A stretch of 56,086 nt of DNA from Chitinophagaceae bacterium (GTDB lineage Bacteria > Bacteroidota > Bacteroidia > Chitinophagales > Chitinophagaceae), in contig JACSRV010000100.1 in assembly GCA_014879545.1 (NCBI GenBank), forward strand, positions 1-56,086, read 5' to 3'. A program made the translations under genes and the position numbers. The notes under the pieces are model-generated. The model ran no database searches, was not told the origin of the DNA, and saw nothing but the letters and a program-made list of their open reading frames with translations. Shown here one piece after another: positions 3,227-4,831 of the stretch; the stretch's first letter is position 1; each line of letters starts with the position of its first letter.

Positions 3227-3274
3227 TATATCTCGCCAAATCTACCATTTCTAAGCCACTTTTGGCGAGTTATA
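3227..3274. repeat. 48-bp palindromic element, copy A (upstream of ATPase gene)
   Basis: A 48-bp imperfect palindrome. CTCGCCAAA (3232-3240) is mirrored by TTTGGCGAG (3261-3269) across a 20-nt centre. The outer bases TATAT and TTATA are also roughly symmetric. It is 44/48 identical to copy C (4784-4831) in direct orientation and has the same layout as copy B. The long centre and lack of a U-tract argue against a terminator. A protein-binding or recombination site is more likely. Confidence 0.85.
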
Positions 3275-3281
3275 CAAATTC

Positions 3282-3329
3282 TATATTTCGCCAGAACTCA
3301 CCGTTTTTTACTACTTTTGGCGAAATATA
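3282..3329. promoter_or_regulatory. 48-bp palindromic element, copy B (just before ATPase start)
   Basis: The most symmetric of the three copies: 15-bp arms TATATTTCGCCAGAA and TTTTGGCGAAATATA with one mismatch across an 18-nt centre. It ends 12 nt before the ATG of the ATPase gene, a position suited to an operator. Copies A and B are separated by only 7 nt. Autoregulation by the winged-helix-like region of the downstream protein is an inference. Confidence 0.75.
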
Positions 3330-3341
3330 ATATCCCATAAT

Positions 3342-4778
3342 ATGGAAGTATTGGCTGGACGGCATGAAGAAAAGCTACTTCTGCAAAAGATCTCTGGCTC
3401 CGGCGAACCCGAGCTGGTTGTTGTTTATGGCCGCCGCAGGGTTGGCAAAACATATCTCGTTCGGCATGTGTTTGCAAAACAACTTGCTTTCGAAGTTTCC
3501 GGCATGCACAACGCCACGCTGAAACAACAGCTCCTCAATTTCAGTATGGCACTATCGGGCAAAAGAACCAAACTAAAATTGGCTCCTCCCGAAAACTGGA
3601 TGGAAGCTTTCAACCAACTCATCGCCCATCTTTCTCCTATCATACGGAAACAACGCAAAGTCATTTTTTTCGATGAGTTCCCCTGGCTTTGCTCTCCTCG
3701 CTCAGGCTTCATGCAGGCTTTCGAGCACTTCTGGAACACATGGGCCTCACGTCAGAAAAACCTTCTGGTGGTTATATGCGGATCGTCAGCAGCGTGGATG
3801 ATACAAAAGGTCATCAACAACAAAGGCGGACTTCACAACAGGGTCACACGCAGTATCCGGTTACAACCGTTTTCACTCAGTGAGACCGAAGAATTCCTCA
3901 AAGCAAGAAAAATCAACCTCGACCGCTATCAGATACTGCAGTTATACATGGTAATGGGCGGCGTCCCGCAATACCTGAAAGAAGTGGAAAAAGGCGAAAG
4001 TGCTGCACAGGCCATAGATCGCAACTGCTTTACAAAAGACGGACTGCTGCACAACGAGTTCAAAAATCTCTTCCTGTCGTTGTTTGGAGAGGCTACGGCA
4101 CACATAAACATCATCCGGGCTCTGGCAGCACATGGCTCCGGCCTCGACCGCACCGACATTATCAGAACATGCAAACTAACCTCAGGTGGCGGCACCTCAC
4201 TCATTCTCGATGAGCTTTCCCAGTCGGGTTTTATCACACCCTATATCCCATTTGGTAAAACAGCAAAAGACTATCTCTATAAACTTACTGATGAGTATTC
4301 CCGATTTTACATGAAATTCATCGACAACAACCGTATTTCAGGTGCCGGCTCATGGATACGCTTTTCCACTGGTCAGTCTTGGAAAAGCTGGAGCGGATTC
4401 GCGTTCGAAAGCATTTGCATGAAGCACACACAACAACTGAAAAACGCACTCGGCATCGGCGGTGTCTATACCGAAACTTCAGTCTGGCAGAGTAAAACCA
4501 CCGATAAAAAATCCGGCGCCCAGATCGATCTCGTCCTCGACCGCCAAGATCATTGTATCAATATATGCGAAATGAAATTCGCAAACTCCCGTTTCGAGAT
4601 CACTAAAGACTACGCGAAAACTCTTGAAAATAAATGCGCCGCTTTCCGTGAAGAGACCGGCACTTCAAAGTCGCTCCTTATCACAATGGTAACAACCTTC
4701 GGGCTTAAAAATTCAGACAAATATTCCGGGCTCATTCAAAGAGAAGTCAGTATGGACGGCCTTTTCAATCCATTATAA
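3342..4778 (+). CDS. AAA ATPase with winged-helix-like region and PD-(D/E)XK-like C-terminus (DUF234-type)
   Basis: A 478-residue protein of the archaeal-ATPase/DUF234 type. Walker A is GRRRVGKT near residue 30; Walker B is VIFFDEFPWL near residue 110, followed by a sensor-like VVICGSSAAWM. The middle (LDRTDIIRTCKLTSGGGTSL to ELSQSGFI) reads as a winged helix. The C-terminus has AQIDLVLDR followed by INICEMKF, the D...ExK spacing of PD-(D/E)XK nucleases. Such proteins are common in Bacteroidota and archaea but poorly characterised. The gene is isolated between ispE and recG and is enclosed by three copies of a 48-bp palindrome. I suggest a self-regulated, possibly mobile ATPase/nuclease; enzymatic activity is not proven here. 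Confidence 0.85.
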   Translation: MEVLAGRHEEKLLLQKISGSGEPELVVVYGRRRVGKTYLVRHVFAKQLAFEVSGMHNATLKQQLLNFSMALSGKRTKLKLAPPENWMEAFNQLIAHLSPIIRKQRKVIFFDEFPWLCSPRSGFMQAFEHFWNTWASRQKNLLVVICGSSAAWMIQKVINNKGGLHNRVTRSIRLQPFSLSETEEFLKARKINLDRYQILQLYMVMGGVPQYLKEVEKGESAAQAIDRNCFTKDGLLHNEFKNLFLSLFGEATAHINIIRALAAHGSGLDRTDIIRTCKLTSGGGTSLILDELSQSGFITPYIPFGKTAKDYLYKLTDEYSRFYMKFIDNNRISGAGSWIRFSTGQSWKSWSGFAFESICMKHTQQLKNALGIGGVYTETSVWQSKTTDKKSGAQIDLVLDRQDHCINICEMKFANSRFEITKDYAKTLENKCAAFREETGTSKSLLITMVTTFGLKNSDKYSGLIQREVSMDGLFNPL

Positions 4779-4783
4779 TATAT

Positions 4784-4831
4784 TATATCTCGCCAAAACT
4801 ACCTTTTCCAACCCACTTTTGGCGAGTTATA
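4784..4831. repeat. 48-bp palindromic element, copy C (downstream of ATPase gene)
   Basis: Starts 5 nt after the ATPase stop codon. CTCGCCAAAA (4789-4798) mirrors TTTTGGCGAG (4817-4826) across an 18-nt centre. It matches copy A at 44 of 48 positions in the same orientation, so the gene is bracketed by direct repeats about 1.56 kb apart. It lies in the convergent space before the recG stop. Confidence 0.85.

Follow-up and report, generated by a model that had tools for sequence, protein, structure and literature searches.

PDC-S27 is described as an ATPase plus a PD-(D/E)XK domain and, together with PDC-S01, ranks among the putative defence genes met most often in archaea and bacteria, neither of them validated and its role still that of a candidate only; the PDC systems derive from a guilt-by-embedding screen, and most of them still await validation (passages on these systems in PMC12988326). 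The gene analysed here, which lies in a 56,086-nt stretch of DNA from a Chitinophagaceae bacterium (hereafter the window), resembles that family in its full-length profile match, in the fusion of an ATPase to a PD-(D/E)XK domain and in its patchy distribution, but a palindromic DNA element is its nearly constant companion, whereas the PDC-S27 passages of two papers that name the family mention no cognate palindrome. A literature search, with most subscription journals and preprints outside its range, yielded no account of these elements. The locus shares with autoregulated modules of the type of the AbiE antitoxin AbiEi (PMC7319586) that inverted repeats lie in tandem over the promoter of a gene with a putative role in defence or as a toxin; it differs from those in that the putative binder is an AAA+ nuclease with no separate antitoxin gene, that a copy of the site can sit behind the gene, and that the sequence of the site is hypervariable. 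The pairing of a protein with palindromic or repeated DNA sites also occurs in REP elements with their RAYT transposases and in the ends of Tn7 with TnsA and TnsC. TnsA has a PD-(D/E)XK fold, and the window protein unites a TnsC-like ATPase (by Foldseek) with a nuclease of that fold; unlike in REP/RAYT and Tn7, no Y1 or DDE transposase occurs here, and the elements are not dispersed and usually do not stand at both ends. Archaeal Orc1/Cdc6 initiators, which bind inverted repeats, and the P. abyssi ATPase 2QEN have the same AAA+ plus winged-helix fold (Foldseek), although the window protein differs from both in its PD-(D/E)XK end, and the comparison does not imply an origin of replication.

In the window, a single gene (3342-4778) sits between ispE and the convergent recG and is accompanied by three 48-bp imperfect palindromes of common layout, with TATA at the outer ends, a GCC core and a T-rich centre. 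The distal upstream element A (3227..3274, no strand assigned; arms TATATCTCGCCAAA / TTTGGCGAGTTATA; covariance model E=7e-10) starts 8 nt after the stop of ispE, the gene-proximal element B (3282..3329, plus strand; E=1.3e-10) ends 12 nt before the ATG, and the downstream element C (4784..4831, no strand assigned; E=4e-10) starts 5 nt after the stop codon of the gene. A and C are direct repeats that differ at 4 of 48 positions (44/48 identical), and the span from A to C, with the gene and B inside, is 1605 bp. The common layout, the 44/48 match of A and C, the unit of about 1.6 kb and the copy just past the stop codon had been described in an earlier note on this DNA and were confirmed by direct reading and a repeat search. 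The layout is beyond chance, because a 15-nt half-site with at most two mismatches matched 7 times in the window compared to 0.46 times expected from dinucleotide shuffles; six of these matches are the half-sites of A, B, and C. The genome-wide search for further copies that the note had proposed found the paired layout in the 3.5-Mb assembly at the places of A, B, and C only, barring one chance-looking match with another spacing, and the PDC-S27 protein occurs once in this assembly.

The gene is on the plus strand and encodes 478 aa. Residues 1-475 align to positions 1-473 of 474 of the PADLOC profile PDC-S27 (E=3.9e-201); by this alignment the window protein is a full-length member of PDC-S27, a PADLOC defence candidate of the untested class. 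The earlier suggestion of a protein with ATPase, DNA-binding, and PD-(D/E)XK-like parts agrees with the Pfam match to ATPase_2 (PF01637, 2.4e-15; DUF234 was sub-threshold) and with an AlphaFold2 model of high confidence (pLDDT 90.8), which shows a winged helix and a PD-(D/E)XK fold. The order of domains, all read from the plus strand, is an AAA+ ATPase core (residues about 1-178, 3342..3875; Walker A GRRRVGKT at 30-37, Walker B FFDE at 109-112), a lid, a winged-helix DNA-binding domain (residues about 251-305, 4092..4256; Orc1/Cdc6 and 2QEN matches, weak MarR_2 match), and a PD-(D/E)XK nuclease domain (residues about 345-478, 4374..4775; E356, D396, and E410-x-K412; weak DUF234 match). The Foldseek neighbours comprised P. 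abyssi 2QEN, Orc1/Cdc6, STAND ATPases, RuvB, and TnsC. The key Walker residues as well as E356, D396, E410, and K412 were invariant in an alignment of 35 sequences, in which the relatives were 46-68% identical to the window protein. A sequence search of solved structures yielded weak matches only, and the DARPin matches among them were taken as spurious; a close search of viral contigs yielded no relative of the window protein. The Pfam search revealed no recombinase domain in the protein, and no transposase, recombinase or reverse transcriptase is present with the single-gene unit.

The occurrence of the palindrome was counted with one definition within 300 nt upstream of the gene at 92 loci (80 relatives sampled from Bacteroidota genomes, and further copies in the genus). 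Between one and five elements were found upstream in 86/92 relatives, as against 15/172 shuffled regions and 55/756 control windows taken at these loci (7-9%; Fisher p about 1e-71). The palindrome is a feature of the family, not a peculiarity of the window. The spacing between successive upstream copies is usually 51-56 nt, and in most cases the last one ends within 40 nt of the ATG. Among 35 genomes of the genus, the covariance model detected elements in all 17 gene-bearing genomes and a convincing one in just 1 of the 18 gene-less ones (G016), and with a loose pattern that allowed eight spacings, the GCC..GGC spacing was exactly 32 nt in all gene-linked matches. Comparable palindromes lie upstream of plasmid-borne relatives in Emticicia, Segatella, and Butyrivibrio and stand at a copy in Wolbachia phage WO; for more distant relatives, the evidence of palindromes is thin. 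The arms vary highly between loci (e.g., CTCGCCAAAA, TCAGCCAAAA, TCGTCCAAAA, TTGCGGAAAG, and TGACTTAAA). A dispersed REP-like element was ruled out, since the copies lie at the gene, with all three copies of the window genome at this locus and few orphans in the genus.

Some upstream regions are more elaborate. Arrays of at least five elements extend across about 800 bp upstream of L025, at G003:C86 7178-7844 and at G023:C958 4322-5140, with a spacing of about 135-157 nt, not 54. In one locus of G037 (L140, G037:C46), a dense run of short copies (GAGTTATCGCCGAAAATG..GGGCGATAAGTG) precedes one PDC-S27 copy, the repeat form being shorter than at other loci.

TAnnTTTG is the -7 box of Bacteroidota promoters. 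The right arm of B holds a match to it, TACTTTTG (3312-3319), so that a protein on B would, going by the consensus, cover the predicted promoter; a -33 box was not identified ahead of this match in the window. Across the family, TAnnTTTG was present in the right arm of the proximal element at 42/86 loci compared to 10/86 in the mirror arm (p about 1e-7), and in the right arm of 7/63 distal elements (p about 1e-6 against the proximal ones). One test of arm similarity against protein similarity gave the highest partial correlations for the lid (0.17) and the winged helix (0.15) and the lowest for the nuclease (0.02); single residues gave no confirmation.

In an alignment of 45 elements, which extends over 48 columns without a gap, 89.7% of the cells were paired, and two-sided changes greatly exceeded one-sided ones (144 versus 12 cells); the covariation score was 0.488, compared to 0.147 for shuffled and 0.03-0.08 for slid alignments. 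The elements have perfect-looking stems with a T-rich centre and stand in tandem upstream of a nuclease gene, as might be expected of RNA hairpins that act as attenuators or terminators or as the repeat RNA of a type III toxin-antitoxin system. An RNA stem would be expected to change by way of G-U pairs, and G-U states are nearly absent among the paired cells, which argues for a double-stranded DNA palindrome read by a symmetric protein. There is also no Rfam match, one copy lies past the stop codon, and the proximal copy carries the -7 box in its right arm, so that it would mostly not be transcribed. We regard the hairpin reading as extremely improbable; the terminator variant falls with it, because the two-sided changes are almost without G-U states and Rfam gave no match.

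The earlier note held that an operator explains A and B but not C. The part on A and B is retained as the best reading, and the part on C is weakened by genome G010, which carries the gene at the same ispE-recG site (protein 68% identical). There, A, B, and C all have ACGCC-type arms (mostly TTACGCC), as against CTCGCC/TTCGCC in the window, i.e., C shifts in step with A and B, and these sequences argue that one protein may read C as well. Downstream copies were also found in the near-identical relative, G007, G014, the L051/L052/L064 group, L080, L083, L132, and L137, and in L024 the downstream copy precedes the apparent start of a second gene copy. The majority of relatives have upstream copies only, and the direct-repeat bracket is a minority arrangement.

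The gene is distributed patchily (17/35 genomes of the genus, at about ten different insertion places) and is also found on phage and plasmid records. According to the earlier note, an empty ispE-recG junction with one remaining element would betray excision or insertion. This junction is filled in G000, G034, and G010 and indeed empty in G002, with ispE following recG by about 45 nt, but no element is present there; single elements turned up instead at another junction and in WO phages. A second junction, between lpt and a response regulator gene, carries A, B, the gene, and C in G007 and G014 and is empty, again without an element, in G010 (where the gap is very short) and G018. The absence of an element from these two naive-looking junctions implies that the element is not an insertion target there. 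A third place, upstream of serS, is filled in G001, G004, and G021, and G005 has the gene there too. In G016, the serS site lacks the gene and holds a single element, which is in register with C of the filled relatives and has a decayed right arm; on its left side, the flanking sequence aligns with that of A in G001.

A comparable case is found in Wolbachia phage WO. In the wRi phage, a PDC-S27 relative (40% identity) is situated between capsid genes and accompanied by two tandem TAACCGCGG-type palindromes. In six gene-less WO records, the element pattern matched once per whole record, at the junction of the wRi gene; the five checked in sequence have one or two elements there (wKue has a second, partial copy), and the sixth has one element and another insertion. 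The WO palindrome, TAACCGC(C/G)G..GCGGTAA, lies in L197 (MN180249.1) at 2890-2995 and in KX522565.1, MN180250.1, MN180251.1, AB161975.2, AB036666.1, and HQ906663.1; it is conserved, with a fixed length of 37 nt, between the minor capsid and head decoration genes. In viral contigs, the Wolbachia query recovered identical copies only. Judged by sequence, the solo elements at serS and in WO are what a deletion between direct elements would leave; in WO, the gene could alternatively have been inserted beside a pre-existing element.

Orphan elements in gene-bearing genomes are few (G008:C251 and G020:C216 with two each, G001:C21, and G004:C12) and often match the arm type of the resident gene. At G008:C251 2195-2296 (L260), two near-identical tandem elements and a third half copy stand without a gene and agree in arm type with the resident gene, which is on another contig. 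In L268 (G026:C14 66000-71000), a PDC-S27 pseudogene interrupted by stop codons and frameshifts still has elements upstream, of two arm types (TCGTCC and TCGCC). G023:C996 was rejected as an orphan site, being probably the upstream end of one locus split over contigs (its flank matches the flank of the G003 gene), and in G032:C84, G022:C424, and G022:C696 the matches resemble common hairpins or an artefact of a contig end.

These observations bear on the suggestion of the earlier note that the locus resembles a minimal mobile or homing unit. On such a reading, A and C would be the ends or copies of the site, the nuclease would cut at or near them, and the block would move, its excision leaving one element. 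Filled and empty sites in close relatives, the single-element sites in G016 and the gene-less WO phages, the many insertion places, the phage and plasmid copies, the orphans of the resident type, and an excess of convergent neighbours (27/75 loci versus 40/270 background pairs, p=1e-4) all speak for it. Elements at both ends, however, occur in a minority, among them G010, G007/G014, and the clades of the window and of L051, most relatives lacking the downstream copy; the single gene brings a nuclease and neither transposase nor recombinase, and the naive-looking junctions have no element that could have served as a target. The data do not show the element as a transposon end. Moreover, there is usually one copy of the gene per genome, the elements are nearly always beside it, and the solo element of G016 with its decayed right arm may equally be a deletion scar. 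The mobile-unit reading thus has partial support. We consider mobility of this kind unlikely, and more doubtful still a defence or addiction module, in which the elements would hold the nuclease at its own locus as a DNA sink until phage or loss of the locus released or activated it. The match to a common putative defence candidate (PMC12988326, passages on PDC-S27) is consistent with such a module, as are the tandem sites plus a downstream site, which exceed the need of one promoter, and some neighbouring defence genes (Druantia-like, SoFic-like, and PDC-S13), but most of the sampled neighbours are housekeeping genes, the ispE and recG of the window included, genomes that have lost the gene are found, and guilt by embedding would flag any freely spreading gene too.

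The reading that we favour, and hold to be probably correct, is that of a self-contained PDC-S27 gene that spreads horizontally together with DNA sites cognate to it, A and B being autoregulatory operators and C an auxiliary site. The PDC-S27 protein would sit on the 48-bp palindromes as a symmetric dimer or a larger oligomer, and its binding at B, over the predicted -7 box and start of transcription, as well as at the adjacent A would repress the gene; C might serve the same protein in looping or in closing the locus off from the convergent recG. Each protein would recognise its own arms, so that site and protein diversify together, and this may be why copies in one genome differ in their arms (five different arms in the five copies inspected in G037). 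As A and C are direct repeats, recombination between them would delete the gene and leave one element as a scar. The data fit, at the level of sequence, a gene that brings its own operators, co-diversifies with them, spreads horizontally and is lost via direct copies, and palindromes that vary from gene to gene with matched halves suggest a protein that recognises and controls its own locus. Several points stand against the operator: no -33 box was recognised, a plain autoregulator needs neither a nuclease, which may serve defence, nor a site past the stop codon, and a few of the elements are orphans with no gene beside them. A bolder idea, which we think rather unlikely, is that palindrome and ATPase-nuclease form a self-recognition pair, in which the site would mark the locus of the gene and the nuclease would act on, spread or be lost through the sites, and site and enzyme would diverge into mutually orthogonal types, comparable to plasmid incompatibility or homing, throughout Bacteroidota and possibly in several phyla. 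Should the pair turn out to be selfish and not protective, the defence label, which comes from guilt by embedding, would have to be revised. A cognate hypervariable site at nearly every Bacteroidota copy examined, and similar palindromes at some copies elsewhere (Wolbachia phage WO, a Butyrivibrio plasmid, and other plasmids), offer a substrate for tests of binding, cleavage, and expression, and the solo elements left in gene-less relatives allow its gain and loss to be followed.

Other repeats were encountered in the same genomes. GCCAAAACTCGCCTTTTTCTTTGTTACTTTCTTTTTGGC is dispersed with small variations (G013:C2, C8, C15, and C17; G004:C55; G021:C69; G001:C191) and is unrelated to the gene. 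At L020, L021, L022, and L023, the gene lies near dispersed repeats with GGGGCGAATTGAATTCGCCC or a similar sequence, which are common to these loci and possibly represent another repeat family.
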